DNA of 64,000 bases, taken from assembly GCF_029167645.1 (NCBI RefSeq), contig NZ_CP119147.1:3472001-3536000 (forward strand), written 5' to 3'. Every line of letters begins with the position of its first letter. The stretch's first letter is position 1. This stretch comes from Streptomyces sp. AM 2-1-1 (lineage in GTDB: Bacteria > Actinomycetota > Actinomycetes > Streptomycetales > Streptomycetaceae). The notes beneath the pieces are model-generated. The model ran no database searches, was not told the origin of the DNA, and saw only the letters and a program-made list of their open reading frames with translations. Below are positions 8,024 through 57,351 of this stretch, piece by piece. The position numbers and the translations under genes were made by a program.

Positions 8024-9514
8024 TCAGCCCCAGGTGATCAGCCGCTTCGGCTGCTCCAGGATCGCGGCGACGTCCGCCAGGAACCTCGAACCGAGCTCGC
8101 CGTCGATCAGGCGGTGGTCGAACGACAGCGCCAGCGTGGTCACCTGACGGGGCTTCACCCTGCCCTTGTGGACCCACGGCTGGAGCTTGATCGAGCCGAC
8201 CGCGAGGATCGCCGACTCCCCCGGGTTGAGGATGGGCGTGCCGGTGTCGACGCCGAAGACACCCACGTTGGTGATGGTGAGCGTGCCGCCCGCCATCGCC
8301 GCCGGGGACGTCTTGCCCTCCCGCGCCGTGGCGACCAACTCACCCAGAGCGGAGCCGAGTTCGGGCAGGGTCTTGTCCTGCGCGTCCTTGATGTTCGGCA
8401 CGATCAGACCGCGCGGGGTGGCCGCGGCGATGCCCAGGTTGACGTAGTGCTTCTGGACGATCTCCTGGTTCGCCTCGTCCCACGTGGCGTTGACGCCCGG
8501 GTTCCGCTTGACCGCGACGAGGAGGGCCTTCGCGATGAGGAGCAGCGGGTTGACCCGGACCCCGGCGAGGTCCTTGTCCTCCTTCAGCTCCGCCACCAGC
8601 TTCATCGTGCGGGTGATGTCGACCGTGACGAACTCGGTGACGTGCGGTGCGGTGAAGGCGCTGGTCACCATCGCCTGCGCGATGGCCTTGCGCACCCCCT
8701 TGACGGGGATGCGGGTCTCGCGCGCACCCGGTACCGCGGCGGCCACCGGCTGCGGCGCCTGGTAGGACGCGTCCCCGGCGTACGGGGCGTCCTCGGCGTA
8801 AGGCTCCGCCGGGGCGGTGGCGGCGCCACCGACCGCACCGGCCGGTGCCGGCGCCGGGGTGACGGGGGCGGCCGAAGTGGCGGCGGCGTGCACGTCCTCG
8901 CGGGTGATGACGCCGTCCGGGCCGGTGGGGGTGACCCCGTCCAGGTCGATGCCGAGGTCCTTCGCCAGCTTGCGGACCGGGGGCTTGGCGAGCGGACGGC
9001 TCTTGGCGACGCCCGGAGCGGGACCCTGGCCGTTCAGCTCGCGCTGGACGGCCTCGACGGCGGCGGTCGCGGGCTCCGCGCCCTTGCGGGGGCGGCGCTT
9101 GGTGGAGCCCTCGACGACGCCGTAACCGACCAGCACGGGCCGGCGGCCCTGCGGCGCCTCCTGGGGAGCCACCCCGGCGGGGGAGGCCGCGGCGGGCTCC
9201 GCCGGGGCGGCCACCGGAGCCTGGACGGGCGCGGCGGCGTCGGAACCCGGCGCCACGTCCACCACGATGATCACCTCGCCGACGTCGACCGTGGTGCCTT
9301 CGGGGAAGCGCAGCTCGTGCACCACCCCGTCGAACGGGATCGGCAGCTCCACGGCCGCCTTGGCGGTCTCGACCTCGCACACGACCTGGCCGTCGGTGAC
9401 GGTGTCGCCGGGCTGGACGTACCACTTGAGGATCTCCGCCTCGGTGAGTCCCTCGCCCACGTCGGGCATCTTGAACTCACGGAAACGAACCGATGTGTCG
9501 GTCATCGTCGTCAC
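8024..9514 (-). CDS. bkdC: Branched-chain 2-oxo acid dehydrogenase E2 (dihydrolipoamide acyltransferase), copy 1
   Basis: 496-residue E2 subunit, which transfers the acyl group from lipoyl-lysine to CoA. Lipoyl domain at residues about 12-90 with the modified lysine in EVETAKAAVEL (K52). Ala/Pro-rich linker 90-165. Peripheral subunit-binding domain at about 170-210 (PPVRKLAKDLGIDLDGVTPTG). Catalytic domain from about 265 to the end, with the DHRxxDG active site (FDHRLIDGELGSRF). It follows E1beta by 10 bp in one operon. Acyl-CoA products supply branched starters for fatty acids and polyketides in Streptomyces. Branched-chain rather than pyruvate specificity is inferred from the separate E1alpha/E1beta genes and from synteny with the known bkd loci. 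Confidence 0.93.
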   Translation of the reverse strand: MTTMTDTSVRFREFKMPDVGEGLTEAEILKWYVQPGDTVTDGQVVCEVETAKAAVELPIPFDGVVHELRFPEGTTVDVGEVIIVVDVAPGSDAAAPVQAPVAAPAEPAAASPAGVAPQEAPQGRRPVLVGYGVVEGSTKRRPRKGAEPATAAVEAVQRELNGQGPAPGVAKSRPLAKPPVRKLAKDLGIDLDGVTPTGPDGVITREDVHAAATSAAPVTPAPAPAGAVGGAATAPAEPYAEDAPYAGDASYQAPQPVAAAVPGARETRIPVKGVRKAIAQAMVTSAFTAPHVTEFVTVDITRTMKLVAELKEDKDLAGVRVNPLLLIAKALLVAVKRNPGVNATWDEANQEIVQKHYVNLGIAAATPRGLIVPNIKDAQDKTLPELGSALGELVATAREGKTSPAAMAGGTLTITNVGVFGVDTGTPILNPGESAILAVGSIKLQPWVHKGRVKPRQVTTLALSFDHRLIDGELGSRFLADVAAILEQPKRLITWG

Positions 9515-26090: not shown

Positions 26091-27524
26091 CTACAAGGTG
26101 CGCAGCAGGATCGCCGGCTGTTCCACGCAGTCGGCGACGTACCGCAGAAACCCTCCTGCCGTGGCGCCGTCGCAGACCCGGTGATCGAAGGTGAGCGAGA
26201 GCTGCACCACATGACGCACCGCCAGCTCGCCGCCGTGCACCCAGGGCTTCGGGACGATGCGGCCGACACCGAGCATCGCCGCCTCGGGATGGTTGATGAT
26301 CGGAGTGGAGCCGTCCACCCCGAACACGCCGTAGTTGTTCAGGGTGAAGGTGCCACCCGTCAGCTCCGCCGGTGTCAGCTTCCCGTCCCGGGACGCCTCG
26401 GTGAGCCGGGCCAGCTCGGCCGCCAGCGAGTCGACGGACCGCGTGTGCGCGTCGCGGACCACGGGGACGACGAGCCCCCGGTCCGTCTGCGCGGCGAAAC
26501 CGAGGTGGACGGAAGGCAACAGGACGATCTCCCGGGCGGAGGCGTCCACGGTCGAGTTCAGCTCGGGGAACTTCGCCAGCGCCGCCGCACAGATCCGGGC
26601 CAGCAGGGCGAGGATCGACACCTTCGGGCCCGCGGCACCGTTCATCGCCGCGCGGGCCGCCATCAGCTCGGTCGCATCGGCGTCCACCCAGCAGGTGGCG
26701 TCCGGGATCTCCGTCCTGCTGCGCGACAACTTGTCGGCCACCAGGCCCCGCAGGCCTCGCAACGCGACCCTTTCACCGGTCTCGGAGGCCGGCAGCGGGA
26801 CGGCGGCTTCCACGGCGCCGGCCGCGTGCTCGCCGACCACCGCCGCCTCCCGGATCGTCGCCTCGACGTCGGACCGCAGGATCAGCCCGTCCGGCCCCGA
26901 CCCGGCCAGCTTCCGGAGGTCGAGTCCGTGCTGCCGGGCCAGCCGGCGGACGAGCGGCGAGATGACCGCGACCGGACCGGCCCCCGTGCGCGCTCCGGCC
27001 GACACGGCAGGACCACCGGCAGACGGGCCGGGTCCGGCAGGAACGGCACGCGGGGCGGGTGCGGCAGCCGCTGCGGCCGGGTCGGGCGCGGCGGCCGTCA
27101 CGAGCTGGGGGCGGACCCGTCGGCGTCGCGCCGCCGGAGCCGCCGTCCCGTACCCGACCAGCACGTTGCCCGAGGACTCCGGCGTGTCTCCCCGCGCCTC
27201 CGCCTCCGCCTCCGCCTCCGGTGAGGGCGACCGCGCCGGACCCGGTGTCGGAGCGTCCACGGAGGCCGCTCCCGCCGCAGATCCGACCGCCACCGTCACC
27301 AGCGGGGCCCCGACCGGAAGCTCCTCCCCCTCCTCGCCGAAGCGGACCGTCACCACGCCCCCGTACGGGCACGGCACCTCCACCAGGGCCTTGGCCGTCT
27401 CGACCTCGACCACCGGCTGGTCCACCGCGACGACGTCACCGACCTCCACCAGCCACCGCACGATCGTCGCCTCGGTGAGGCCCTCGCCGAGGTCCGGCAG
27501 CGTGAATTCGAGCACCGTGGGCAT
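26091..27524 (-). CDS. bkdC: Branched-chain 2-oxo acid dehydrogenase E2, copy 2
   Basis: 477 residues. Lipoyl domain about 1-80 with lysine K45 in EVETAKALVEV, Ala/Pro linker, E1/E3-binding domain about 175-210 (PLVRRLARQHGLDLRKLAGSG) and catalytic domain to the end with DHRxxDG (FDHRVCDGATAGGFL). Same order of domains as copy 1 but with diverged linkers. Start ATG 27524 overlaps the E1beta TGA by one base. The two E2 proteins differ clearly in the linker and in the residues around the active site (RLIDG versus RVCDG). Confidence 0.93.
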   Translation of the reverse strand: MPTVLEFTLPDLGEGLTEATIVRWLVEVGDVVAVDQPVVEVETAKALVEVPCPYGGVVTVRFGEEGEELPVGAPLVTVAVGSAAGAASVDAPTPGPARSPSPEAEAEAEARGDTPESSGNVLVGYGTAAPAARRRRVRPQLVTAAAPDPAAAAAAPAPRAVPAGPGPSAGGPAVSAGARTGAGPVAVISPLVRRLARQHGLDLRKLAGSGPDGLILRSDVEATIREAAVVGEHAAGAVEAAVPLPASETGERVALRGLRGLVADKLSRSRTEIPDATCWVDADATELMAARAAMNGAAGPKVSILALLARICAAALAKFPELNSTVDASAREIVLLPSVHLGFAAQTDRGLVVPVVRDAHTRSVDSLAAELARLTEASRDGKLTPAELTGGTFTLNNYGVFGVDGSTPIINHPEAAMLGVGRIVPKPWVHGGELAVRHVVQLSLTFDHRVCDGATAGGFLRYVADCVEQPAILLRTL

Positions 27525-28540
27525 CAGCGCGCCGCCTCCCACTGGAGCCGGGCCACCGCGTCGAGCACCCGGTCCACCCCTGGCAGATGGTGCCGCTCCA
27601 GCATCGGCGGCGGGTACGGGATGTCGAAACCGGAGACCCGCAGCACCGGCGCCTCCAAGTGGTGGAAGCACCGCTCGGTCACCCGGGCCGCGATCTCGCC
27701 CCCCGGTCCGCCGAACCCGGTCGACTCGTGGACGATCACCGCGCGGCCGGTCCGGCGCACGGAGGCGGCCACGGTCTCGTCGTCGAACGGCACCAGCGAG
27801 CGGAGGTCGACGACCTCCAGGTCCCACCCCTCCGCCACCGCCGCCTCGGCGGCCTCCAGGCACACCGGCAGGGACGGGCCGTAGGTGATCAGGGTCGCGC
27901 TCGTCCCGGGCCTGCGGACCACCGCCCGCCCGAGGGGCTCGACCTCCGCCGGGTCCTGGGGCGACCAGTCGGACTTCGCCCAGTACAGCCGCTTCGGCTC
28001 CAGGAACACCACCGGGTCGTCCGACGCGATCGAGGCCCGCAGCAGCCCGTAGGCGTCCTCGACGGTGGCCGGAGTGACGACGTACAGCCCCGGGGTGGCC
28101 ATGTAGTACGCCTCCGAGGAGTCGCTGTGGTGCTCGACTCCGCCGATGCCGCCGCCGTAGGGGATCCGCACGGTCAGGGGCATCGGCAGGGCTCCCCCGG
28201 TGCGGTTCCGCATCCGGGCCACATGGCTGACGAGTTGCTCGAACGCGGGGTACGCGAACGCGTCGAACTGCATCTCCACCACGGGTCGCAGGCCGTACAT
28301 CGCCATCCCGACGGCGGCGCCGAGGATGCCCGCCTCCGCGAGCGGGGTGTCCGTGCACCGGGCGTCGCCGAACTCGGCCGCCAGCCCGTCGGTGACCCGG
28401 AAGACGCCGCCGAGCGTGCCGACGTCCTCGCCGAGGACGTGCACCGAGGGGTCCTCGGCCATCGCGTCCCGCAGCGCCCGCCCCAGCGCCTGCGCCATCG
28501 TGGCCGGCCGGGTCCGGTCCGCCCGTACCGCCGTCGTCAT
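27524..28540 (-). CDS. bkdB: Branched-chain 2-oxo acid dehydrogenase E1 beta, copy 2
   Basis: 338 residues. VHVLGEDVGTLGGVFRVTDG, DTPLAEAGILGAAVGMAMYG, VRIPYGGGIGGVEHHSDSSE and HESTGFGGPGGEIAARVTE mark the transketolase beta subunit. Begins at ATG 28540, overlapping the E1alpha TGA by four bases. Middle gene of alpha-beta-E2. Confidence 0.93.
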   Translation of the reverse strand: MTTAVRADRTRPATMAQALGRALRDAMAEDPSVHVLGEDVGTLGGVFRVTDGLAAEFGDARCTDTPLAEAGILGAAVGMAMYGLRPVVEMQFDAFAYPAFEQLVSHVARMRNRTGGALPMPLTVRIPYGGGIGGVEHHSDSSEAYYMATPGLYVVTPATVEDAYGLLRASIASDDPVVFLEPKRLYWAKSDWSPQDPAEVEPLGRAVVRRPGTSATLITYGPSLPVCLEAAEAAVAEGWDLEVVDLRSLVPFDDETVAASVRRTGRAVIVHESTGFGGPGGEIAARVTERCFHHLEAPVLRVSGFDIPYPPPMLERHHLPGVDRVLDAVARLQWEAAR

Positions 28541-29748
28541 CGTCCGTCCTCCGCGACCTGCTCGTCGTCCGGTCCGCCGGCGGCGGGCCCCTGCCCCGGG
28601 GCGTGCCCGGCGTCCTCGTGCGCGCTCGCCGCCTCCAGCTCGGCGCGCAGCCGCGCCCGCTGTTCTTCCAGAGGTCCCGTCCGCCGTGTGAAGACGTGCG
28701 CGAACAGATCCATCGGGTCGAGCACCGGATCCGCGTTCATCCGCTCCCGCAGCGCCGCCGCCATCCGCTCGGCGTCCTGGCGCACCGCCCCGAGGGCCTC
28801 CTCGTCGAGCAGACCCCGGCCGGTCGCCTCGCGTTCCACCAGGAGCACCGGATCGTGGTCCCGCCAGGACGCCACCTCCTCGTCGGAGCGGTAGCGGGTC
28901 GCGTCGTCGGCGTTGGTGTGGGCTTCCATGCGGTAGGTGACCGCCTCCACCAGCGTCGGTCCCCCACCGCTCCGGGCGCGCGCCACAGCCTCGGCGAGCA
29001 CCTCGTGGACCGCGACCGCGTCGTTGCCGTCGACGAGTCTGCCGGGCATGCCGTACCCGACCGCCTTGTGGGCGAGGGACGGCGCCGCCGTCTGCTTCGA
29101 CAGCGGCACCGAGATGGCGAAGCCGTTGTTCTGCACCAGGAAGACGACCGGCGCCCGCCACACCGCCGCGATGTTCAGCGCCTCGTGGAAATCGCCCTCG
29201 CTGGTCCCGCCGTCCCCGACCATCGCCAGTGCCACCACGTCGTCGCCCTTGAGCCGCGCCGCGTGCGCCAGACCGACCGCGTGCGGCAGTTGCGTCGCCA
29301 AAGGGGTACAGAGCGGCGCGATCCGGTGCTCGCGGGGGTCGTAGCCGGTGTGCCGGTCACCACGCAGCAGCGTCAGCGCGTCGACCGGGTCGAGACCCCG
29401 GGCCACCGCGGCGAGCGTGTCGCGGTAACTCGGAAAGAGCCAGTCCCGTTCCTCGAGCACCAGCGCGGCGGCCACCTCGCAGGCCTCCTGCCCCGTGCTG
29501 GACGGGTACACGGCGAGGCGCCCCTGCCGGGTCAGCGCCGTGGCCTGCGTGTTGTACCGGCGGCCGCGCACCAGTGCGGCGTGGAGGCGGAGCAGCAGCC
29601 CGGGATCGACTCCGGCCGCTGCGTCCGTACCGAGCACCCGGTACGGCTCCGCATCCGGCAGCAGCGGCTCCGGGTCGGTGAGCGGCTTCCACGCAGGGGG
29701 CGGCGCGGGCCGGTAGGCGGCCGCGCCCGGCAGCTCTTGGACCGTCAT
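28537..29748 (-). CDS. bkdA: Branched-chain 2-oxo acid dehydrogenase E1 alpha, copy 2
   Basis: 403 residues. ThDP motif GDGGTSEGDFHEAL through LVQNNGFAIS, then YRMEAHTNADDATRYR. Start ATG 29748 has GGAGGTG 8 nt before it; the in-frame GTG 29757 lies too close to that ribosome site. The C-terminal 35 residues form an acidic Gly/Pro-rich tail. Divergent from an Lrp/AsnC regulator across 258 bp that contains a PaaR-like motif and two DnaA-type boxes. Confidence 0.93.
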   Translation of the reverse strand: MTVQELPGAAAYRPAPPPAWKPLTDPEPLLPDAEPYRVLGTDAAAGVDPGLLLRLHAALVRGRRYNTQATALTRQGRLAVYPSSTGQEACEVAAALVLEERDWLFPSYRDTLAAVARGLDPVDALTLLRGDRHTGYDPREHRIAPLCTPLATQLPHAVGLAHAARLKGDDVVALAMVGDGGTSEGDFHEALNIAAVWRAPVVFLVQNNGFAISVPLSKQTAAPSLAHKAVGYGMPGRLVDGNDAVAVHEVLAEAVARARSGGGPTLVEAVTYRMEAHTNADDATRYRSDEEVASWRDHDPVLLVEREATGRGLLDEEALGAVRQDAERMAAALRERMNADPVLDPMDLFAHVFTRRTGPLEEQRARLRAELEAASAHEDAGHAPGQGPAAGGPDDEQVAEDGR

Positions 29749-29891: not shown

Positions 29892-29905
29892 ACCGATTGT
29901 TCGGT
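29892..29905. promoter_or_regulatory. PaaR-type operator candidate upstream of bkdA copy 2
   Basis: ACCGATTGTTCGGT fits the ACCGNNCGNNCGGT core with one mismatch (TG instead of CG in the centre). The same motif lies before paaN/tetR and paaA. About 145 bp before the bkdA start. Confidence 0.45.
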
Positions 29906-29939
29906 CGCCGACGCATTTTGGCTACAGGCACCCCCGCCC

Positions 29940-29961
29940 TGTGGACAAACGGTTCTCCACA
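29940..29961. promoter_or_regulatory. DnaA-type boxes in the bkdA-bkdR intergenic region
   Basis: TGTGGACAA at 29940-29948 is the reverse complement of TTGTCCACA, the preferred Streptomyces DnaA box. A near-match, TTCTCCACA, lies at 29953-29961. Two boxes this close are more than chance for AT-containing 9-mers in this composition. Function unproven. Confidence 0.4.
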
Positions 29962-30006
29962 GCCTGGGATGGAGGCAGCTCGTCCACACCGGGGAGGCAC
30001 GGGGGC

Positions 30007-30513
30007 ATGGCAGCTGAACGAATGGCCGAGGGGTCCGGGCAGGCACCGCCGCCGCGTCCGCTGGACGCCGTCGACCGCGACATCATCCGCATCCTCCGCG
30101 CCGACGGCCGGGCCTCGATACGGGCCGTCGCCGAGCAGGTCCACGTCTCGCGCGCCAACGCCTACGCCCGCATCGACCGGCTGGTCGAGGACGGGGTGAT
30201 CCGGGGCTTCAGCGCCCGCGTCGACCACGAGCGGGCCGGGCAGGGGGCCTCCGCCTACATCACGCTCAAGATCGTGCAGAACTCCTGGCGGACCGTCCGC
30301 GAGCAGCTCCAGGCCCTGCCGGGCGCCACCCACCTCGCCCTCGTCAGCGGTGATTTCGACGTGCTGCTGCTGGTCCACACACCGGACACCCGCGCCCTGC
30401 GCGAACTCGTCCTGACCCGCATTCAGGCCATTCCCGAAGTGCTCTCCACCCGCACCCTGCTGGTCTTCGAGGAAACCGACCTGGGCCACGGCTCCGCCGA
30501 CCCCGCCACCTGA
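30007..30513 (+). CDS. bkdR: Lrp/AsnC-family regulator, likely BkdR
   Basis: 168 residues. N-terminal HTH at about 20-65 (LDAVDRDIIRILRADGRASIRAVAEQVHVSRANAYARIDRL) and a RAM ligand-sensing domain to about 160 (ASAYITLKIV; LVSGDFDVLLLVHTPD). Located head-to-head with the bkd operon, which is the position of the bkdR activator/repressor known in Streptomyces avermitilis. Start ATG 30007 (MAAERMAEGS); an internal ATG six codons later is also possible. Confidence 0.85.
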   Translation: MAAERMAEGSGQAPPPRPLDAVDRDIIRILRADGRASIRAVAEQVHVSRANAYARIDRLVEDGVIRGFSARVDHERAGQGASAYITLKIVQNSWRTVREQLQALPGATHLALVSGDFDVLLLVHTPDTRALRELVLTRIQAIPEVLSTRTLLVFEETDLGHGSADPAT

Positions 30514-30577
30514 CACCACCGCGCCGGCCGGCCGGCCCCGACGCACGGGCCGGGCCCGGCGTCCTCAGCGGCCGGTG

Positions 30578-31201
30578 TCACCGCCCGGTGGAACGCATCC
30601 CCTCGAAGGCCAGCCGCACGACGGTCCCCGGCAGGTCGCCGCCGGCCCCGTCCCCCTCCGCGGCGCCGGCCGCCCCGGCGCCGTCGGCCTGCGGCCGGTA
30701 CCACTCGACGAGGGAGTTCACCATGCCGAACAGCAACCGGGTGGCCAGCCGTATGTCCACGTCGGCCCGGAGGTCCCCGTCCGCGACGGCCGCCTTCAGA
30801 AGTGCCGAGACCCGCTGGTCGAACTCGCGGCGCCGTTCCAGCGCCCAGCGCTCGGTCTTCGTGTTGCCGCGCACGCGCAGCAGCAGGGTGACGTAGGGCA
30901 GGTCGGCCATCAGCACCTCCACCGTGCGGCGCGTGACGTACTCGACGCGCTCCACCGCGCGTCCCCGCACCGCGCCCGGCTCGTCAAGGATCCGGAAGAG
31001 GCCGTCGATCGCCCGGCTCACCGCGCGGCGCAGCAACTCCTCCTTGCCCGCCACGTGGTGGTAGATCGAGGACTTCGAGATGCCCGCGGCACGGGAGAGG
31101 TGCTCCATGGACGTGCCGTCGTATCCGCGCTCGTTGAAGACCCGCACGGCGACGGCGAGCAGAGTCTCCGGGGTGTACGTGTCCCGCTTGGCCGTGGTCA
31201 T
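30578..31201 (-). CDS. paaR: TetR-family repressor, PaaR-like
   Basis: 207 residues. HTH at about 10-60 (TPETLLAVAVRVFNERGYDGTSMEHLSRAAGISKSSIYHH). The C-terminal ligand domain contains REFDQRVSALLKAAVADGDL and LLFGMVNSLVEWYRP. This domain pattern is seen in PaaR repressors, which sense phenylacetyl-CoA. It is divergent from paaN across 123 bp holding an ACCGATCGTTCGGT site. Position and motif together make the name likely but not certain. The upstream open frame is antisense to paaN. Confidence 0.78.
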   Translation of the reverse strand: MTTAKRDTYTPETLLAVAVRVFNERGYDGTSMEHLSRAAGISKSSIYHHVAGKEELLRRAVSRAIDGLFRILDEPGAVRGRAVERVEYVTRRTVEVLMADLPYVTLLLRVRGNTKTERWALERRREFDQRVSALLKAAVADGDLRADVDIRLATRLLFGMVNSLVEWYRPQADGAGAAGAAEGDGAGGDLPGTVVRLAFEGMRSTGR

Positions 31202-31223
31202 GGACGCGATCCTCCCCCATGAG

Positions 31224-31232
31224 TTGTCCACA
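31224..31232. promoter_or_regulatory. DnaA-type box TTGTCCACA
   Basis: Exact match to the Streptomyces DnaA box, 23 bp before the tetR start codon and 25 bp from the PaaR-type palindrome. Confidence 0.4.
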
Positions 31233-31256
31233 GGTTGTCCGGGGCCCCTTGTCCCG

Positions 31257-31270
31257 ACCGATCGTTCGGT
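31257..31270. promoter_or_regulatory. PaaR-type operator in the tetR-paaN intergenic region
   Basis: ACCGATCGTTCGGT, an ACCGNNCGNNCGGT palindrome, which is the core of the PaaR motif described for Corynebacterium glutamicum as I recall it. Placed 55 bp before tetR and 55 bp before paaN. The identical sequence in reverse complement precedes paaA. Confidence 0.7.
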
Positions 31271-31324
31271 TACTCTAACCCCGTCAGCACGTCCCCGCCC
31301 GGCTCGATGAGGAGTTGGTCCGCC

Positions 31325-33034
31325 ATGGCCGCCGCGCTCTCCCTCCAGAAGCTGTCCGAGATCCACCGGCCCACCCTCGACCAGGCCCTCGAAGCCGTCC
31401 GGACCCGCGCCTACTGGTCGCCCCACCCCGAGCACCCCAAGGCGTACGGCGAGGGCGGAGCACCCGGCAGCCTGGGCGCGGCCGAGGGCAAGGCCGCGTT
31501 CGACGCCCTCCTGCAGAGCAGGTTCGACCTCGGTCAGCCCGGCACGGACGGCTGGACCGGCGCCGAGACCTCCCCGTACGGCCCCGAGCTGGGCATCGAG
31601 TACCCGCACGCCGATCCCGACGTCCTGCTGCCCGCGATGAGCGCCGGAACGGCGGCCTGGCGGGACGCAGGCCCGGAGGCCCGGGCCCTGGTCTGCCTGG
31701 AGATCCTGGCCCGCATCGGCGCCCGGACGCACGAGCTGGCGCACGCCGTCATGCACACCAGCGGCCAGGCCTTCCTGATGGCGTTCCAGGCGGGCGGCCC
31801 GCACGCCCAGGACCGCGGCCTGGAGGCCGTGGCGTACGCGTACGAGGAACAGCTCCGTACCCCCGCCGGGGCCGACTGGTCCAAGCCGCAGGGGAAGCGC
31901 GACCCGCTCCGGCTGCGGAAGACCTACACCGCGGTCGGACGCGGTGTCTCGCTGCTCATCGGATGCAACACCTTCCCCACCTGGAACAGCTACCCGGGCC
32001 TCTTCGCCTCGCTCGCCACCGGCAATCCGGTCCTCGTCAAGCCGCACCCCCGCGCCGTGCTCCCCCTCGCGCTCACGGTCCGCATCGCGCGGGACGTGCT
32101 CGCCGGGACCGGCTTCGACCCGAACCTCGTCGCGCTGACGGCCGAGCGGCCGGGTGAGGGGAGCGCCAAGACGCTGGCCCTGCGCCCGGAGGTCCGGATC
32201 ATCGACTACACCGGCTCCACCGCCTTCGGGGACTGGCTGGAGACCCACGCGCGCCAGGCCCAGGTGTACACCGAGAAGGCCGGGGTCAACACGGTCGTCA
32301 TCGACTCCACCGACGACTACACCGGCATGCTCGCCAACCTCGCGTTCTCGCTCTCCCTCTACAGCGGCCAGATGTGCACCACCCCGCAGAACCTCCTCGT
32401 CCCGCGCGACGGCATCACCACCGACGCCGGCCCCCGGACGTACGACGAGGTGGTCACCGACCTCGCGACGGCCGTCTCCGGGCTCCTCGGCGACGACGCC
32501 CGGGCCGCCGCCCTCCTCGGAGCCCTGGTCAACCCGGAGGTGCGGGGCCGCCTCGAAGCGGCGCCGGACCTCGGCGACGTGGCCCTGGCCTCCCGCGAGG
32601 TGGCGCACCCCGAGTTCCCGGACGCCGTGGTGCGCACGCCGGTGCTGGTCAAGGTGGCCGCCGGGGAGCCCGGCCCGGACGGCGGTGAGCCCGTCCACCT
32701 CTCCGAGTGCTTCGGGCCGGTGTCCTTCGCGGTCCGGGTGGACTCCACGGCGGACGCGGTCGAGCTGCTGCGCCGCACGATCCGGGAGAAGGGTGCGATG
32801 ACGGTCGGCGCCTACACCACCTCCCCCGAGGTGGAGAGCGCGATCGAGGAGGTCTGCTTCGAGGAGTCCGCCCAGCTGTCGCTGAACCTGACCGGCGGGG
32901 TCTACGTCAACCAGACGGCGGCCTTCTCCGACTTCCACGGCTCGGGCGGCAACCCGGCGGCCAACGCGGCCCTCTGCGACGGTGCCTTCGTCTCCGGGCG
33001 CTTCCGCACCATCGAGGTCCGCCGCCAGGCCTGA
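31325..33034 (+). CDS. paaN: PaaN: phenylacetate-pathway aldehyde dehydrogenase-like protein
   Basis: 569 residues of the PaaN (PaaZ-like, aldehyde dehydrogenase superfamily) family. NAD-binding pattern LLIGCNTFPTWNSYPGLF, then NPVLVKPHPRAVLPLALTV; the catalytic Cys is in SGQMCTTPQNLLVPRDG (about 360); SECFGPVSFAVRV follows. It probably oxidises the semialdehyde formed after ring cleavage in the phenylacetyl-CoA pathway, but the hydrolase domain of the bifunctional PaaZ is missing. Start ATG 31325 has GAGGAG upstream; the extension to 31235 is not typical. Confidence 0.87.
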   Translation: MAAALSLQKLSEIHRPTLDQALEAVRTRAYWSPHPEHPKAYGEGGAPGSLGAAEGKAAFDALLQSRFDLGQPGTDGWTGAETSPYGPELGIEYPHADPDVLLPAMSAGTAAWRDAGPEARALVCLEILARIGARTHELAHAVMHTSGQAFLMAFQAGGPHAQDRGLEAVAYAYEEQLRTPAGADWSKPQGKRDPLRLRKTYTAVGRGVSLLIGCNTFPTWNSYPGLFASLATGNPVLVKPHPRAVLPLALTVRIARDVLAGTGFDPNLVALTAERPGEGSAKTLALRPEVRIIDYTGSTAFGDWLETHARQAQVYTEKAGVNTVVIDSTDDYTGMLANLAFSLSLYSGQMCTTPQNLLVPRDGITTDAGPRTYDEVVTDLATAVSGLLGDDARAAALLGALVNPEVRGRLEAAPDLGDVALASREVAHPEFPDAVVRTPVLVKVAAGEPGPDGGEPVHLSECFGPVSFAVRVDSTADAVELLRRTIREKGAMTVGAYTTSPEVESAIEEVCFEESAQLSLNLTGGVYVNQTAAFSDFHGSGGNPAANAALCDGAFVSGRFRTIEVRRQA

Positions 33035-33079
33035 GCCAGTGCCGGGCCGCCGCCCCACCGGGAGCGCGCGGCCCGGTCG

Positions 33080-33793
33080 TCAGACCCGCGGGTCCGGCAC
33101 GTCCGCGTACCGCTGGATCCACGCGTGCATGGCGATGGCGGCAGCGGCGCCCGCGTTGATCGACCGCGTGGAACCGAACTGCGCGATCGAGCAGACCATC
33201 GACGCGTGGGCCCTGGCCTCCTCCGTGAGCCCGGGGCCCTCCTGGCCGAAGAGCAGCACACAGCGCCGGGGCAGCACGGTCCGCTCCAGCGGGACGGCGC
33301 CGGGGAGGTTGTCGATCCCGATGATCGGCAGCCCTTCCGCTGCCGCCCAGGCGGTCAGGTCGGCGGTCCCGGGGTGGTGGCGCACGTGCTGGTAGCGGTC
33401 GGTGACCATGGCCCCGCGCCGGTTCCAGCGACGCCGGCCGACGATGTGGACCTCCTTCGCCAGGAAGGCGTTCGCCGTACGCACGACCGAACCGATGTTG
33501 AAGTCGTGCCCCCAGTTCTCCACCGCCACATGGAAGTCGTGGCGCCGCAGATCGAGGTCGGCGACGATCGCCTCACGAGTCCAGTAGCGGTACTCGTCCC
33601 CCACGTTGCGCCGGTCACCGCCCGCCAGCAGCTCGGGGTCGTACCGCTCGCCCTCCGGCCAGGGGGAGGGGTGCGGCCCGACACCGATCCCGTCCCCGAA
33701 GCCCTCGTCGTACTGCGCCGGTTCCGGGGCCGGATCGGGCCCCTCGGCCACGAAGGGCCGGAATTCCTCTGTACTGCCGGTCTCGCTGCTCAC
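33080..33793 (-). CDS. SpoU-family RNA 2'-O-methyltransferase
   Basis: 237 residues. SPOUT-fold motifs: motif 1 in VENWGHDFNIGSVVRTANAF, motif 2 in LLFGQEGPGLTEEA and motif 3 in IAQFGSTRSINAGAAAAIAMHAW, which form the knotted SAM site and the Arg/Glu catalytic set. Methylates ribose in tRNA or rRNA; TrmH-like substrate not determinable. Last gene of a minus-strand set; its ATG overlaps the HTTM stop by four bases (33790-33793), so it is coupled to HTTM and DUF5819. The N-terminal 75 residues are acidic and disordered. Confidence 0.88.
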   Translation of the reverse strand: MSSETGSTEEFRPFVAEGPDPAPEPAQYDEGFGDGIGVGPHPSPWPEGERYDPELLAGGDRRNVGDEYRYWTREAIVADLDLRRHDFHVAVENWGHDFNIGSVVRTANAFLAKEVHIVGRRRWNRRGAMVTDRYQHVRHHPGTADLTAWAAAEGLPIIGIDNLPGAVPLERTVLPRRCVLLFGQEGPGLTEEARAHASMVCSIAQFGSTRSINAGAAAAIAMHAWIQRYADVPDPRV

Positions 33794-35205
33794 CCGACGA
33801 GCGTAGGGCCCCCGTCGGCGGGCCGCCGCGAGGCCTCCCGGCCGGGCTCCTCGCCCCCCGCCTCATCGGTACCCGCCCCGGCGCCCTGCGCCGCGGCGGC
33901 ACGCGCCCCCGCAGCCCCCGGATCGGCAGCCTCCGCCTCGGTGGGCTTCCGTCGACCGGGGAGGCGTGCCGCGGCCGGGCCACGGCTCACCCGGGCCAGC
34001 AGCCGGTCCCGGCCGGAACCGACCCGGGCGCCGAGCCACACCAGGAAGACCGTGGGCAGGAAGACGGCGTCCGCGGAGATCATCGCCATCGAGAAGAAGG
34101 GCAGCCCCAGCAGGACCGCGATCCCCGCGTGCTCGCCCATCATGAGCACCAGCAGGACGTTCTTCACCCGCCGGTCGAAAAGCGTGAACGGGAACGCGAC
34201 CTGCACGATCACCGTCGCGTACGTCACCACCATCACCATCACCGCGCTGCCCGCGATCAGGTTCGAGAGCTCGGGCCACGGGGTGAAGTAGTCCAGCTTC
34301 AGGGGGTAGTAGAGCGCGGTGCCGTCCTGCCAGCGCGAACCCTGGATCTTGTACCAGCCGGCGGTGGCGTAGATCAGACAGACCTCGGCCATGATGACGA
34401 CGAGGGCGACGTTGTGGGCGATGTTGGCCACCACGTCGAGCAGCACCCGCGGTTCACCGTCGGGCGCGTACCGGGTCGCGGCCCACCGAGCGGCGCACCC
34501 CAGCCACAGCAGCCACAGCAGCGTCGGCAGCCACCAGGTGCCCCCCAGACCGTGCTGCACGGTGGCGACCAGCAGGACCGGCCCGAGGACCGCCCAGAGC
34601 ACCAGCCCCACCACGTCCCGGCCCGGCCTCAGCCCTTCCGCCCGGCGCGCGGCCTCCCGTGCGGCCCGCCGCGCGTCGAGCGACCAGACCTGGGCGCACC
34701 GCGTCAGGACGAGGTAGATCGCCATCAGATGGACGACGTTGTCGCCGCCGTCGCCCATGAAGACATTGCGGTTCTGGATCGAGAGGACCCCGACCATGAA
34801 GAGGACGGACATCGTCCGGGTGCGCCACCCGATCAGCGTGCAGAACGCCGATACGAGCGTGAGCGCGTAGACCGCCTCGAACCACGCCGAACCGTCCGAC
34901 CACATCAGGACGGTGAAAGCGCGGTTCTCGGATATCAGCCGGTGCGCCAGCTCCCACTGCCACGGCGCGTCCGGCCCGTACAGCTCGTGCCGGTACGGCA
35001 CCTCGCGCAACAGGAAGAGCAGATAGGTGGCGGTGAACCCGATCCGGATCACGGCGCTCTGGTAGGGGCCGAGGGCCGAGGCGGTGACCCGCTGGACGGC
35101 ACGGCCGGCCCTGCCCACGGCCGCGGGGCGTGCCAGGGGGTCGGGGTGTGCGGGGGAATCGGTGCGCACGGCGGACTCGGCGTCCGTCACGGGGGCGGTA
35201 CTCAC
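33790..35205 (-). CDS. HTTM-domain multi-pass membrane protein (vitamin K-dependent carboxylase-like fold)
   Basis: 471 residues. Begins with about 50 polar residues, then about 8-9 TM segments ([79 protein letters not shown] and others). The motifs [31 protein letters not shown] and [16 protein letters not shown] are shared with HTTM proteins, named for the region common to gamma-glutamyl carboxylase. The C-terminal ~90 residues are Ala/Gly/Glu/Arg-rich. Activity unknown; the carboxylase catalytic extracellular domain is not present. Start GTG 35205 overlaps the DUF5819 TGA by four bases. Confidence 0.85.
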
Positions 35206-36383
35206 TGGTCGGCCTCCTCGCCGGACGCGGCTGCCGCCGCCACGCCACCCTCGGGCAGATCGTCGCTGGACACGGTCCACCAGGCGAGTTCGCGGTAGAC
35301 GGGCCGCGTGTCGGCCTTCTCGGTGCTCCACGGGGGAGCGTCGACCAGACGGGCCGACGAGCGCAGCTGAATGCGGTCGACCGTCCCGCCGTAGTCGTGG
35401 CCGTCCAGCCGCAGCATCACGATGCGCCGCAGGTACGCCTCGGAGAGCTCACCGCGCGCACCCGTCGAACGGTTCTTGTCGTCGTGGCTGTTGACGAAGA
35501 AGTCCCAGGCCCTGCGCAGTTCGTTCTGGTAGGCGTGGCTGGGCAGCGGGTTGCCCCGTATCGCCTTGCCGTCCTCCGCGCTGAGGCTCATCCAGCGGGT
35601 GGTGCTGCGCGCACCGCTCGCGTCGACGACTTCGGCCCGGACGTGCACGGTGATGTTCTGCTGAAGCGGGTTGGGAGCGAAAAGCTTCCAGTTCTGTTCG
35701 AACTCCGGGTAGATCCAGTCGTCGATGGTCTCCCCGTGCTGCTTGGAGAGCGTGTTCGACGGCGCCACGTGGAGGAAGACCATGCCCAGGTGGACGCAGG
35801 CGATCAGACCGACGACCCCCGCCACCAGCGCCGCGACGACCCGGTACGGGGTCGACAGCGCGGCGATTCCGGCCCGTGCCGCATCCGGGGGCGGCCCGGC
35901 CGGCGCGGGGGAGGCGGCGTCCGGGCCGCCGTCGCCGCCCTCACGGCCGTCGCCGTCCCGGCCGGCGCCCTCACGGCCGTCGCCCGCTCCGCGGTCCGCG
36001 GCAGCCGGCACCCCGGCTCTCCCGGCCTCGGTCCTTCCGGTACGGGATTCGCGGGCACCTGGCTCCTCGGCCGCCTCGGGTTCCCAGGCACATGGCTCCA
36101 CCGCTGTGTCGGGCTCCTGGGGGCCGGGTTCCACGACGGGCCCTGGTTCCCCGGAACCGGACACTCCGCCGCTCTCCACCGGCTCGCTCCCGGCAGCACC
36201 CTTCTCGTCGGCGCCGAGGGCGTCGGGCCGCTCTCCGGCGGGGCTCGGCGTCTCTTCGGACGCCTTGTCGGCACCCGCCTCGTCCGGACCCTCACTCCCG
36301 TCGGCGAACCGACGTTTCGAGCGCCCCCCGTGATCCGATTCCATCCCGCCCCGATCGTCGTCGATCACCACTCGGTTATCCAC
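35202..36383 (-). CDS. DUF5819 family protein, single-pass membrane
   Basis: 393 residues. Residues 1-160 are highly acidic, Gly/Pro/Glu/Ala-rich and likely disordered in the cytoplasm. TM segment about 180-200 ([27 protein letters not shown]). Residues 200-390 are the conserved domain outside the membrane: [32 protein letters not shown], then [19 protein letters not shown] and [13 protein letters not shown]5819 is usually found beside HTTM genes in Streptomyces, suggesting a joint complex. Starts at GTG 36383 (MDNRVVIDD), overlapped by a DnaA-like TTATCCACA. Confidence 0.85.
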
Positions 36384-36384
36384 A
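36376..36384. promoter_or_regulatory. DnaA-type box TTATCCACA overlapping the DUF5819 start codon
   Basis: Exact match to the classical DnaA box at 36376-36384, overlapping the initiation codon of the DUF5819 gene and 46 bp from the PaaR-type site. Confidence 0.4.
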
Positions 36385-36429
36385 GGGTTGACACCCTACG
36401 GTCCACCGGCCGACCATTGAAGTCGATGG

Positions 36430-36443
36430 ACCGAACGATCGGT
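36430..36443. promoter_or_regulatory. PaaR-type operator upstream of paaA
   Basis: ACCGAACGATCGGT, exactly the reverse complement of the site at 31257-31270. It ends 15 bp before the paaA ATG, within the leader, where a repressor would block transcription. Confidence 0.7.
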
Positions 36444-36458
36444 CGGGACGGAGTCGTC

Positions 36459-37550
36459 ATGGTGACAGTGGCCTCGGGCCGCCGGGCAGCGGAGGGCGCG
36501 GACACGACCGCTGCCGGGGACGCCGGCCGCACGGCGTCGTTCGACGCGGCGGTGGCCGCGGACGAGCGGATCGAACCCCGCGACTGGATGCCGGACGCGT
36601 ACCGTGCCTCGCTGGTCCGCCAGATGGCCCAGCACGCGCACTCGGAAATCATCGGGATGCAGCCCGAGGCGAACTGGATCACCCGGGCCCCCTCGCTGCG
36701 CCGCAAGGCCGTCCTGATGGCCAAGGTGCAGGACGAGGCGGGCCACGGCCTGTACCTCTACAGCGCTGCGGAGACCCTGGGCACCAGCCGGGCGGAGCTG
36801 CTGGACAAACTGCACGCCGGCCGCCAGCGGTACTCGTCGATCTTCAACTACCCGACCCTGACCTGGGCGGACGTGGGCGCGATCGGCTGGCTGGTGGACG
36901 GGGCCGCCATCACCAACCAGGTCCCCCTCTGCCGCTGCTCGTACGGCCCCTACGCCCGCGCGATGGTCCGCATCTGCAAGGAGGAGTCCTTCCACCAGCG
37001 CCAGGGGTACGAACTCCTGCTGACGCTGAGCCGGGGCACGCCGGCACAGCACGCGATGGCCCAGGACGCGGTGGACCGCTGGTGGTGGCCGTCGCTGATG
37101 ATGTTCGGGCCGCCGGACGACGAGTCCGCGCACAGCGCCCAGTCGATGGCCTGGAAGATCAAGCGGCACTCCAACGACGAACTCCGTCAGCGTTTCGTCG
37201 ACATCTGCGTCCCGCAGGCCGAGTCCCTCGGCCTCACCCTCCCCGACCCGGAGCTCCGGTGGGACGACGCCGAGGGCCGGCACCGCTTCGGCGCCATCGA
37301 CTGGACGGAGTTCCAGGAGGTGCTCCGGGGCAACGGCCCCTGCAACGACCAGCGTCTCGCCCAGCGCCGTGCGGCCCACGACGCCGGCGCGTGGGTACGC
37401 GACGCGGCAGCCGCGTACGCGGCCAAGCACGCGCCGCCCGAGCGACCCCGACAACCCGCGGACCCGCCCGCCTCCGCTCCCCCGCGGGGAACGGGTGCGA
37501 CGGCGGGGACACCGGCCCACCCGACCCGCACGACGGAGGCGACACCATGA
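36459..37550 (+). CDS. paaA: 1,2-phenylacetyl-CoA epoxidase subunit A
   Basis: 363 residues. Catalytic di-iron subunit; ferritin-like helical fold with metal ligands in [13 protein letters not shown] (E/H pair) and [14 protein letters not shown] (E-x2-H). [20 protein letters not shown] and [18 protein letters not shown] are signature segments. The last about 45 residues are a Pro/Ala/Thr tail and the first 30 are disordered. Epoxidises phenylacetyl-CoA with PaaB, PaaC and the PaaE reductase. ATG 36459 has GGAG at 5 nt; its stop overlaps paaB by four bases. Confidence 0.95.
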
Positions 37551-37837
37551 GCGGCTCGACCGACTGGCCGTTGTGGGAAGTGTTCGTCCGCTCCCGCAGA
37601 GGGCTCTCGCACACGCACGCGGGCAGCCTGCACGCCCCCGACGCCACCATGGCCCTGCGCAACGCCCGGGACCTCTACACCCGCCGCGCCGAGGGCGTCT
37701 CGATCTGGGTGGTCCCCTCCACCTCCGTCACCGCCTCCTCGCCCGACGAGAAGGACTCCTTCTTCGAACCGGCCGCCGACAAGCCCTACCGCCACCCGAC
37801 CTTCTACGAGATCCCGGAAGGAGTGCGGCACCTGTGA
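37547..37837 (+). CDS. paaB: 1,2-phenylacetyl-CoA epoxidase subunit B
   Basis: 96 residues, the small structural subunit. [41 protein letters not shown] is diagnostic. Overlaps paaA (ATGA) and paaC (GTGA), so all are coupled. Confidence 0.95.
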
Positions 37838-38595
37838 CCGCCACCCCGACCGGCGCCGCTGCCGGCGCCCGGGCCACCGCGCACCCCCCGGTCCTGGCCG
37901 GAGCCCTCGCGCTGGGCGACGACGCCCTGGTGCTCTCGCACCGGCTGGGGGAGTGGGCGGGCCACGCCCCGGTGCTGGAGGAGGAGGTCGCCCTCGCCAA
38001 CATCGCGCTGGACCTGCTCGGCCAGGCCCGCGTGCTCCTCTCCCTCGTCGGCGACGAGGACGAACTCGCCTACCTCCGCGAGGAACGCGCTTTCCGCAAC
38101 ACCCAGTTGGTAGAGCAGGAGAACGGCGACTTCGCCCGCACCATCGCCCGGCAGCTCTACTTCTCCGTCTACCAGCGTCTGCTGTACGAGCGGCTCGCGG
38201 CCGGAGAGAGCTGTTTCCAGGCCCTGGCGGCGAAGGCGGTGAAGGAGGTCGCCTACCACCAGGACCACGCCGAGCAGTGGACCCTCCGTCTCGGTGACGG
38301 CACCGAGGAGAGCCACCGGCGGATGCGTGAAGGGCTGGACGGACTCTGGAGGTTCACCGGTGAGCTCCTCCAGCCGGTCGAGGGCGTCGACATCGACTGG
38401 CAGGGCCTCGCCGACGACTGGCTCGCCTCGGTCACCGACGTGGTCGTGCGGGCCGGCCTCTCCCTGCCCACCGGCCCGCGCAGCGGCGCGTGGACGGCCG
38501 GCGCCGGCCGTCAAGGTCTGCACACCGAGCCCTTCGGACGCATGATCGCCGAAATGCAGCACCTCCATCGCAGCCACCCGGGGGCGTCATGGTGA
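37834..38595 (+). CDS. paaC: 1,2-phenylacetyl-CoA epoxidase subunit C
   Basis: 253 residues. Structural partner of PaaA with the ferritin-like core: LALGDDALVLSHRLGEWAGHAP, LANIALDLLGQARVLL, VEQENGDFARTIARQLYF and VKEVAYHQDHAEQWTLRLGDGT. Unlike PaaA it does not oxidise the substrate itself. GTG 37834 overlaps the paaB stop. Confidence 0.94.
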   Translation: MTATPTGAAAGARATAHPPVLAGALALGDDALVLSHRLGEWAGHAPVLEEEVALANIALDLLGQARVLLSLVGDEDELAYLREERAFRNTQLVEQENGDFARTIARQLYFSVYQRLLYERLAAGESCFQALAAKAVKEVAYHQDHAEQWTLRLGDGTEESHRRMREGLDGLWRFTGELLQPVEGVDIDWQGLADDWLASVTDVVVRAGLSLPTGPRSGAWTAGAGRQGLHTEPFGRMIAEMQHLHRSHPGASW

Positions 38596-39092
38596 CCGTG
38601 ACGCCGCTGGAGGAGGAGTTGCGCCGGATCGCCGGAGCCGTCCCCGACCCCGAACTCCCGGTGGTGACCCTCGAAGAGCTCGGTGTCCTGCGGGGAGTGC
38701 GCGTGGAAGGGGCGGGCCGTGACGCCGTCACCGTCACCCTCACCCCGACCTACACCGGCTGCCCCGCCGTGGAGACCATGGCGCACGACGTCGAACAAGC
38801 CCTCCGTGACCACGGAGTGGCGCGGGTTTCGGTGGTCACCGTGCTGGCACCGCCCTGGAGCACGGACGACATCAGCGCGGAGGGCCGGCGCAAACTCGCC
38901 GCGTCCGGCATCGCGCCCCCACGCGCCCTCCACCCTCCGGACGGTCCGGTGCCGCTCACCCTGGCCGTGCGCTGCCCGCACTGCGGCTCGACCGGCACCG
39001 AGCTCCTCAGCAGATTCTCCTCGACCGCCTGCAAAGCACTGCGCCGGTGCACCGAGTGCGGCGAACCCTTCGACCACTTCAAGGAGTTGTAG
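38589..39092 (+). CDS. paaD: Phenylacetate-pathway protein PaaD (FeS/metal-sulfur assembly type)
   Basis: 167 residues. MIP18/SufT-like N-terminal domain (IAGAVPDPELPVVTLEELG; TPTYTGCPAVETM) and a C-terminal zinc-ribbon pattern CPHCGSTG...CTECGEPF. PaaD is needed for the activity of the epoxidase, probably in iron-sulfur or di-iron maturation. Overlaps paaC by seven bases; ATG 38589. paaE follows directly with no gap. Confidence 0.93.
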   Translation: MVTVTPLEEELRRIAGAVPDPELPVVTLEELGVLRGVRVEGAGRDAVTVTLTPTYTGCPAVETMAHDVEQALRDHGVARVSVVTVLAPPWSTDDISAEGRRKLAASGIAPPRALHPPDGPVPLTLAVRCPHCGSTGTELLSRFSSTACKALRRCTECGEPFDHFKEL

Positions 39093-40190
39093 ATGTTCCA
39101 TCCGCTCCGGGTCGCTGCCGTCGAACGCATCACGGACGACGCCGTGGCCGTGACGTTCGACGTCCCGGCCGCCCTGCGGGAGACCTTCCGCCACGTACCG
39201 GGCCAGCACCTCAACGTGCGCTACCGGGTGGACGGCGAGGAGATCCGGCGTTCCTACTCGCTCTGCTCCCCCGCCGTGGCGGCCCCGGACCCCCCGGTGC
39301 TCCGGGTCGGCATCCGCCTGGTGGACGGTGGCGCCTTCTCGACGTACGCGCTGAAGGAACTCGCGGTCGGCGACCGGGTGGAGGCGATGGCCCCGACCGG
39401 GCGCTTCACCCTGGAGCCCCGGCCGGGGCTCTTCGCGGCGGTGGTCGGCGGCAGCGGCATCACGCCGGTCCTGTCGATCGCCTCGACCCTGCTCGCGCGG
39501 GAACCCCTGGCCCGGTTCTGTCTCGTGCGCGGTGACCGGACGGTGGCGTCGACGATGTTCCTCGACGAGGTGGCGGACCTCAAGGACCGCTACCCGGACC
39601 GCTTCCACCTCGTCACCGCGCTCTCCCGCGAGGAGCAGGCGGCCGGGCTCCCCACCGGCCGGCTCGACCAGGAGCGGCTGACCGCTCTGCTGCCCGCCCT
39701 GTTGCCGGTGGCGGACGTGGCCGGCTGGTTCCTGTGCGGACCGTTCGGACTGGTCCGGGGAGCCCAACGGGCCCTGCGCGCACTGGAGGTGGACCGCACC
39801 CGCATCCACCAGGAGATCTTCCACGTGGCCGAGGCTCCGGACCCGGCAGCGGCCAGGACAGCGAAGGCCTCGGATGCAGCCGCCGGTGGCGCGGCCGTGA
39901 TCACCGCCCCCGCGGAAGCCACGCTGACGGCGACCCTGCACGGCCGCTCGGGCAGCTGGCCGGTCGAGAACGGCGACTCACTGCTGGAGACGGTGCTGCG
40001 CAGACGCGACGACGCGCCCTACGCCTGCAAGGGCGGCGTCTGCGGCACCTGCCGCGCTCTCCTCGTCCGGGGCGAGGTACGGATGGAGCGGAACTACGCG
40101 CTGGAACCGGAGGAGACCGAGGCGGGCTTCGTCCTGGCCTGCCAGTCGCACCCGCTCACCCCCGAGGTAGCCATCGACTTCGACCGCTGA
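39093..40190 (+). CDS. paaE: Phenylacetyl-CoA epoxidase NADPH reductase subunit PaaE
   Basis: 365 residues. Flavin domain about 5-105 with the FAD motif IRRSYSLCSP; NAD(P) domain about 105-235 (AAVVGGSGITPVLSIAST; GWFLCGPFGLV); plant-type [2Fe-2S] domain at the C-terminus with cysteines in YACKGGVCGTCRALL plus C in LACQSH. Passes electrons from NADPH to PaaABC. The stop is followed by an inverted repeat shared with the convergent rhodanese gene. Confidence 0.95.
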   Translation: MFHPLRVAAVERITDDAVAVTFDVPAALRETFRHVPGQHLNVRYRVDGEEIRRSYSLCSPAVAAPDPPVLRVGIRLVDGGAFSTYALKELAVGDRVEAMAPTGRFTLEPRPGLFAAVVGGSGITPVLSIASTLLAREPLARFCLVRGDRTVASTMFLDEVADLKDRYPDRFHLVTALSREEQAAGLPTGRLDQERLTALLPALLPVADVAGWFLCGPFGLVRGAQRALRALEVDRTRIHQEIFHVAEAPDPAAARTAKASDAAAGGAAVITAPAEATLTATLHGRSGSWPVENGDSLLETVLRRRDDAPYACKGGVCGTCRALLVRGEVRMERNYALEPEETEAGFVLACQSHPLTPEVAIDFDR

Positions 40191-57148: not shown

Positions 57149-57202
57149 TTACCCACAGAGTTATCCACAGGCGGGGGAAAAGGTCGGACGATCTGTGGAT
57201 AA
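57149..57202. promoter_or_regulatory. Cluster of three DnaA-type boxes (first part)
   Basis: TTACCCACA (one mismatch), TTATCCACA (exact) and, on the other strand, TGTGGATAA (exact) within 54 bp. A fourth lies at 57343-57351. This spacing is like a DnaA-binding regulatory or titration site. It is not next to dnaA or dnaN here, so it is unlikely to be oriC. Confidence 0.6.
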
Positions 57203-57230
57203 CCCGCGCCGAAGTTGACGCCGATGTGAC

Positions 57231-57259
57231 TACAGCCTCCCCCATCCGGGGAGGCTGTA
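57231..57259. terminator. Hairpin between crgA and the rhomboid gene
   Basis: A 12-bp perfect stem, TACAGCCTCCCC with GGGGAGGCTGTA, and a 5-nt loop. Between convergent genes; no strong T-tract, though GTTAAGG follows. Confidence 0.6.
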
Positions 57260-57342
57260 GGGGGTTAAGGGGAGAAGAAGACCCTGTTCAGCGACGCGGC
57301 GAACGCATGTACCCATGTTTTCCACCCGGCCTGGCGCCATCC

Positions 57343-57351
57343 TGTGGATAA
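57343..57351. promoter_or_regulatory. DnaA-type box (TGTGGATAA)
   Basis: Exact reverse complement of TTATCCACA, 28 bp before the end of the rhomboid gene. A near match (TGGACAA) lies 14 bp further. Confidence 0.5.

Follow-up and report, generated by a model that had tools for sequence, protein, structure and literature searches.

Putative PaaR operators before the phenylacetate genes and the second bkd operon of Streptomyces

We analysed a 64,000-nucleotide stretch of the chromosome of Streptomyces sp. AM 2-1-1 (NZ_CP119147.1, positions 3,472,001 to 3,536,000; the whole stretch is referred to as the window), in which one palindrome precedes both the phenylacetate (paa) genes and the second bkd operon (bkd2), which encodes a 2-oxoacid dehydrogenase complex. 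Judging from the sequences compared below, the phenylacetate switch of Streptomyces and related genera very probably also acts before bkd2. In the mechanism that we propose, and consider likely, a dimer of the TetR-family repressor PaaR would bind the palindrome ACCGA-N4-TCGGT before paaN/paaR, paaABCDE and bkdA2B2C2 (or bkdR) and keep all three units shut, and phenylacetyl-CoA would release PaaR and open them. The bkd2 complex would join the PaaR regulon most likely via phenylpyruvate, making phenylacetyl-CoA from this intermediate of phenylalanine breakdown, and the inducer would thereby control both the step that produces it and the steps that consume it. The identity of the operator and that of the inducer are carried over from related systems.

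The three predicted operators and their conservation

The putative operator ACCGATCGTTCGGT (31257-31270, no strand assigned) lies in the gap between the divergent tetR and paaN genes, 55 bp from the tetR ATG and 54 bp from the paaN ATG, and its reverse complement (36430-36443, likewise without strand) lies 15 bp upstream of the paaA ATG. The bkd form, ACCGAACAATCGGT on the minus strand at 29892-29905 (forward-strand letters ACCGATTGTTCGGT), is found within the gap between the divergent bkdA2 and bkdR genes, 143 bp from the ATG of bkdA2 and 101 bp from that of bkdR. The positions and sequences given for the three sites in an earlier note on this DNA were all correct, and its central claim, that a single TetR protein has shared predicted operators before paaN/tetR, paaA and bkdA2/bkdR, is supported by computation, the arrangement being conserved across Streptomycetaceae.

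Conservation is stronger evidence than genome-wide rarity that the sites are real. We retrieved 80 Streptomyces loci with the TetR protein (two of them, L052 and L054, from one strain), among which the DNA identity of tetR is 0.74 at its lowest and 0.81 at the median. Wherever both genes could be located, the bkdA2-Lrp gap contains an identical ACCGAACAATCGGT (80/80, counting the window); in one locus (L094) bkdA2 was not located beside the Lrp gene, yet ACCGAACAATCGGT is present. Across 81 aligned rows the bkd site never departs from one 14-mer, whereas the other non-overlapping windows of the aligned stretch hold at least 7 and at the median 55 distinct 14-mers. On the paaN side ACCGAACGATCGGT is exact in 79/80 cases and carries one mismatch in the remaining one; before paaA it lies within 400 bp in 58/60 cases and slightly further out in the other two.

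The count was extended to 150 Streptomyces genomes, 148 of which encode the TetR protein (E 1e-40) and 147 of which have the paa form in one to three copies. Since ACCGAACAATCGGT occurs exactly once in 147/150 genomes, and at the same position wherever it was read (30 of the 147 sites were read in context, all 30 between divergent Lrp and bkdA2 genes), its 'mismatch' does not reflect drift. The earlier note had taken the bkd site for a one-mismatch copy of the paa sites; the central-base difference is true, but the variant is no degenerate copy, being itself invariant. Within Streptomycetaceae at least one of the two forms was detected in 94/101 genomes (72/79 outside the genus Streptomyces). 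Twenty regions were read in other genera. In 18 of them the bkd form occupies the same gap, each time with the TetR gene beside the Lrp gene, while the centre of the paaN operator varies (ACCGAATGATCGGT, ACCGATCATTCGGT, ACCGACCATTCGGT, ACCGAATGTTCGGT); ACCGA...TCGGT is constant, and the bkd form is invariant. The remaining two regions, L211 and L212, come from one genus and contain the 14-mer with no bkd locus. In L211 (from G390) the motif recurs four times over 1.1 kb (9604, 10290, 10566 and 10704), once exactly and three times with one mismatch, and no bkd, paa or TetR relative was found in this region. Beyond Streptomycetaceae 17 of the 222 genomes in a sample of the class have an exact match. 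The 13 of these 17 that were examined as loci have no paa or TetR relatives, with a 35% Lrp match in one of them (L147), and were judged to be chance occurrences.

Motif rarity in the 7.2-Mb genome was assessed by counting each pattern against its reversed control. The scan with the 14-bp motif that the earlier note had proposed was run: the exact form ACCGAWCGWTCGGT is present at 2 places, both of them the paa sites of this locus, and the form within one mismatch at 8 places, three of them at the locus (control 0). For three of eight places to fall inside 6.55 kb, the rough chance estimate is 6e-8. The other five one-mismatch places all lie inside open frames as drawn, two of which (L019 and L023) were drawn with long and uncertain 5′ ends. 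The core ACCGA-N4-TCGGT was found at 21 places (control 2), 18 of them besides the three operators; of these 18, L021 and a further core match in the window, at 9489-9502, were looked at more closely, and the latter falls within coding sequence of the first bkd cluster. The looser consensus ACCGNNCGNNCGGT, given in the earlier note as the PaaR motif of Corynebacterium glutamicum, fits the paa sites, but at the bkd site one central base departs from it. It was dropped as a genome search pattern because of its lack of specificity (93 places, reversed control 13).

The catabolic genes downstream of the paa sites were identified by profile: paaN (31325-33034, plus strand) matches TIGR02288 with 926 bits against a cut-off of 578.75, and paaA (36459-37550, plus strand) matches TIGR02156 with 509.7 bits against a cut-off of 280. 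The paaB, paaC, paaD and paaE frames follow on the plus strand (37082-40190), with TIGR02157/8/9 above cut-off and TIGR02160 just below; the frames scanned for paaB and paaC begin ahead of the true starts of these genes.

The proposed PaaR and its known relatives

The TetR-family gene (30578-31201, minus strand) was identified by profile and structure-database matches. Its best solved match is SCO3833 (PDB 2IAI, E 8.6e-92), of which it is the orthologue; the second structure match is PDB 3VPR, which we take to be PfmR. Homologues carry PF00440, and the profile scan of the locus proteins returned no PaaR model among the NCBIfam matches. The gene is divergent from paaN, and paaN is found in the same locus in 79/80 fetched loci. 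On these grounds of sequence we propose that it codes for the PaaR of Streptomyces. Between tetR and paaN, 60/79 of the relatives' loci have an additional gene of about 1.5 kb, which is missing in the window (31201-31325); in one locus (L025, 8460-10004) it encodes a paaH-type 3-hydroxyacyl-CoA dehydrogenase and overlaps tetR by a few bases.

The S. pristinaespiralis PaaR, reportedly from a study by Zhao et al. 2015, is SSDG_03033, which we infer to be the SCO3833 orthologue. The published excerpts available to us describe it as a TetR repressor of paaABCDE (PMC10933834, PMC7089894), and control of paa by PaaR in Streptomyces is therefore already in print. Unlike the arrangement proposed here, no bkd target is named for it, and 'bkd' and 'BkdR' have 0 occurrences in the available part of PMC10933834. 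Its listed putative site, AACGA-N4-TCGGT (same source, in part), is carried by paaA clusters that lie far from the locus: in 20 genomes chosen from the 150, AACGAATGGTCGGT, which fits that site, or its reverse complement was found upstream of the far paaA in 19/20. In 8 far or displaced paaA clusters searched, no relative of the TetR protein was present within 19 kb, so the regulator would act on them in trans. One of these eight (L247) has a divergent paaI-paaK pair (TIGR02286, TIGR02155) with ACCGACCATTCGGT alongside. The earlier note had spoken of a local regulon; the operators are indeed clustered here, but the far paaA genes indicate that the regulon is not only local.

The designation of the sites as PaaR-type, also made in the earlier note, is supported by Burkholderia cenocepacia, whose validated PaaR operator ACCGACCGGTCGGTT contains exactly ACCGA-N4-TCGGT (PMC9493321, available in part). 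The same text has this PaaR released by 'compound II', which we infer from a cited Sakamoto title to be phenylacetyl-CoA, and, unlike here, the targets it names are paaA, paaH and paaZ only. The Thermus thermophilus proteins PfmR (TTHB023) and PaaR (TTHA0973) are likewise TetR regulators of phenylacetate or fatty-acid genes. The predicted PfmR site TACCGACCGNTNGGTN is one specified base off the paa 14-mer, the TTHA0973 site CNAACGNNCGTTNG is clearly different, and the portions of the sources at hand name no bkd target for either regulator. The actinomycete regulators AccR and PccD are TetR proteins that likewise link a bkd operon to an acyl-CoA-related signal (PMC10933834, PMC8176718, both in part); they differ from the present case in their motifs (GTTAA-N6-TTAAC for AccR) and in the genes concerned (PMC10933834).

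A second element and putative promoters

Each operator is preceded by the nonamer TTRTCCACA, which corresponds to the Streptomyces DnaA-box consensus. TTGTCCACA is located at 29940-29948 on the minus strand, 34 bp upstream of the operator and directed toward bkdA2, and again at 31224-31232 on the plus strand, 24 bp upstream of the operator and directed toward paaN; TTATCCACA is located at 36376-36384 on the plus strand, 45 bp upstream of the operator and directed toward paaA. TTRTCCACA occurs six times in the window against 0.19 expected: one upstream of each operator, and the other three at 57161-57351. Over the 1.49 Mb of the 80 Streptomyces loci, 178/184 nonamers are no more than 110 bp from an operator, and 178/219 operators are accompanied by one. 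The element is exact upstream of the bkd site in 81/81 rows, upstream of paaN in 55/79 (one mismatch in 23 more) and upstream of paaA in 40/60 (one mismatch in 11 more). On the opposite strand no row has an exact copy at bkd, paaN or paaA, with a one-mismatch match at bkd in 50/81. Neither the 20 far paaA regions nor the surroundings of Lrp-bkdA pairs that lack a TetR gene contain the element. Among the 18 bkd regions from other genera it is exact in 6, and the other 12 have TTGTCCACC or a similar sequence at almost the same distance.

TTRTCCACA may be a DnaA site, the site of another activator or, in part, a −35 element (TTGTCC, 18 bp before TAGCCA). The operator at 31257-31270 takes up the 16-bp spacer that separates TTGTCC from TACTCT, two elements that can be read as the paaN promoter. 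Similarly, TTTGTCCACAG and GTAGCCAAA, two conserved blocks with constant spacing, can be read as a promoter toward bkdA2 with the operator just downstream.

One may go further and imagine a two-element module, in which the DnaA-box-like TTRTCCACA faces the catabolic gene and the PaaR operator follows, DnaA or another reader of the nonamer would couple the supply of aromatic and branched-chain acyl-CoA to the replication cycle in the central part of the chromosome, and bkd2 would be the phenylpyruvate dehydrogenase that makes the inducer. We think it rather improbable that this whole scheme is right.

As a separate observation, the three nonamers at 57161-57351 are all TTATCCACA and fall within 191 bp; they may represent one of the DnaA-box clusters that Streptomyces is known to carry close to oriC.

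Role of the second bkd cluster

Streptomyces carry two bkd clusters, and the role of the second has so far been unclear; early work on bkdABC in S. avermitilis reportedly saw no loss of branched-chain activity. In the window bkd2 combines, in one operon on the minus strand, E1 alpha of a 2-oxoacid dehydrogenase complex (bkdA2, 28537-29748), E1 beta (bkdB2, 27524-28537) and the lipoyl acyltransferase E2 (bkdC2, 26091-27524, 477 aa), all matched at the family level. bkdA2 scores 408.3 against TIGR03181, whose cut-off is 411.35, and its assignment is therefore at family level only.

That bkd2 makes phenylacetyl-CoA from phenylpyruvate is the most speculative part of our proposal, and by analogy the most likely role: we propose it because a bkd-type complex adjoins paa genes in four other genomes (G036, G328, G365 and G379). 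In G036, which lacks both the TetR protein and the sites, relatives of bkdA, bkdB and bkdC are followed by a same-strand enoyl-CoA hydratase gene and paaA, paaB and paaC. In G328, bkdABC, paaN, paaH, a hydratase gene and paaA share one strand; in G379, bkdABC are divergent from paaN, a thiolase gene, paaH and paaABC; the clusters of both include a PRK03321-type aminotransferase. In G365, which belongs to another family, bkdABC and a hydratase gene lie near paaABC, paaK and paaZ, and a 47% TetR relative is found in the vicinity. In the E1 beta tree G036, G328 and G379 form one clade (0.98), G365 stands apart and the locus studied here apart again, which indicates at least three separate bkd-paa linkages. 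Read as a whole, G379 and G328 (L254, L255, L305, L306) hold a second Streptomyces cluster of aminotransferase, bkdABC, Lrp, paaN, thiolase, paaH and paaABC genes, which has the appearance of a full pathway from phenylalanine to phenylacetate and lacks this TetR. A third bkdA-like gene is present in the genome of the window (G000:C1:1346549-1347532), its product being 45% identical to the G036 protein.

The strongest competitor, and the view of the earlier note, is that PaaR binds the bkd site but controls an ordinary branched-chain 2-oxoacid dehydrogenase, thereby balancing aromatic and branched-chain acyl-CoA supply. The E1 alpha encoded by bkdA2 resembles both pyruvate and 2-oxoisovalerate enzymes of solved structure, BkdR controls branched-chain catabolism in Streptomyces (PMC8176718, available in part), and homologous complexes with an Lrp gene are widespread without paa genes. 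The recurrent bkd-paa linkage, twice with an aminotransferase, fits a phenylalanine route better. We regard the branched-chain role as a tentative possibility, to be taken seriously. The shared predicted operator upholds the earlier note's link between phenylacetate and bkd, but branched-chain acids are one of two readings of it, and the gene neighbourhoods favour phenylpyruvate as the source of phenylacetyl-CoA.

PaaR might instead act through the bkd site on bkdR only and on bkdABC indirectly. The operator is closer to the start of bkdR than to that of bkdA2, but the TTTGTCCACAG/GTAGCCAAA blocks place a putative promoter toward bkdA2 immediately upstream of the operator, and the orientation of TTRTCCACA, common to bkdA2, paaN and paaA, suggests that bkdA2 rather than bkdR is the controlled unit. 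We therefore hold control through bkdR only to be unlikely.

The site could also belong to BkdR itself, which it adjoins in every locus read. The gene bkdR (30007-30513, plus strand) was placed in the Lrp/AsnC family by a family-level profile match, and its likeness to SCO3832, the S. coelicolor BkdR (PMC8176718, in part), is read from the neighbourhood: the locus tag SCO3833 adjoins SCO3832, just as the TetR gene adjoins the Lrp gene here. BkdR is a regulator of a bkd operon encoded next to the palindrome, but of a different family from PaaR, and the same palindrome precedes paaN and paaA and has the core of a validated PaaR operator. We compared 40 regions that surround bkdA relatives at other loci. 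A divergent Lrp gene lies no more than 1.5 kb away in 24 of them; the TetR gene is absent from all 24 regions, and 24/24 have no motif within one mismatch (best 2), which argues that the site goes with the TetR protein and not with BkdR. BkdR was rejected as the binder on this basis, and we consider it very improbable. Chance or base composition in a G+C-rich genome has practically no claim, for although the loose motif forms are common (93 and 21 places) and scattered exact matches occur in the class sample, a single 14-mer in all aligned rows and in nearly all Streptomyces genomes is not so explained.

Several observations weigh against the proposed PaaR control of bkd2. The core alone, at 21 genomic places, is unspecific; the identity of the TetR protein rests on the SCO3833 structure match, family profiles, gene linkage and operator likeness; and promoter scans of the three operator regions listed no sigma-70-type promoter. 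No paaA is found nearby in 37/40 bkdA regions outside this locus, so bkd-paa linkage is not general in the class and many relatives of the complex surely serve another role. G036 and G118 lack the TetR protein at E 1e-40 and both exact 14-mers, but they are weak cases of joint loss, as G118 has no bkdA2 orthologue (best 39%) and G036 only a 60% relative. G009 has the TetR protein and bkd2, but its best approach to the bkd site has 4 mismatches, and G117 has the bkd site without an exact paa site, but its contig ends close by. G008 keeps the TetR gene and the bkd and paaN sites and has no paaA above cut-off, indicating that the bkd arm does not need paaA. The G009 region (L223, G009:C2:3434000-3453000) shows the TetR gene inverted beside bkdR with a paa-type site just upstream and the bkd site gone, and appears to be a natural case of rewiring.

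Only the bkd arm of this regulon seems to be new. The earlier note had not seen such a regulon described; in the open-access literature searched we found no report of bkd as a PaaR target, no paper on SCO3833 and only a review on SSDG_03033, so the statement holds for the bkd arm and not for PaaR control of Streptomyces paa. Branched-chain acyl-CoAs and phenylacetyl-CoA are precursors of antibiotics (pristinamycin I, avermectin, pamamycin). An unchanged putative PaaR site before bkd2/bkdR would point to a specific role for the second cluster and offer a handle on precursor supply, and deletions of paaR made for work on phenylacetate may also affect bkd2.

The segment between paaN and paaA (33080-36383 of the window) contains a gene for a TrmH/SpoU-like RNA methyltransferase and two more minus-strand frames; relatives of the methyltransferase and of the first minus-strand frame occupy the same place in many of the fetched loci.

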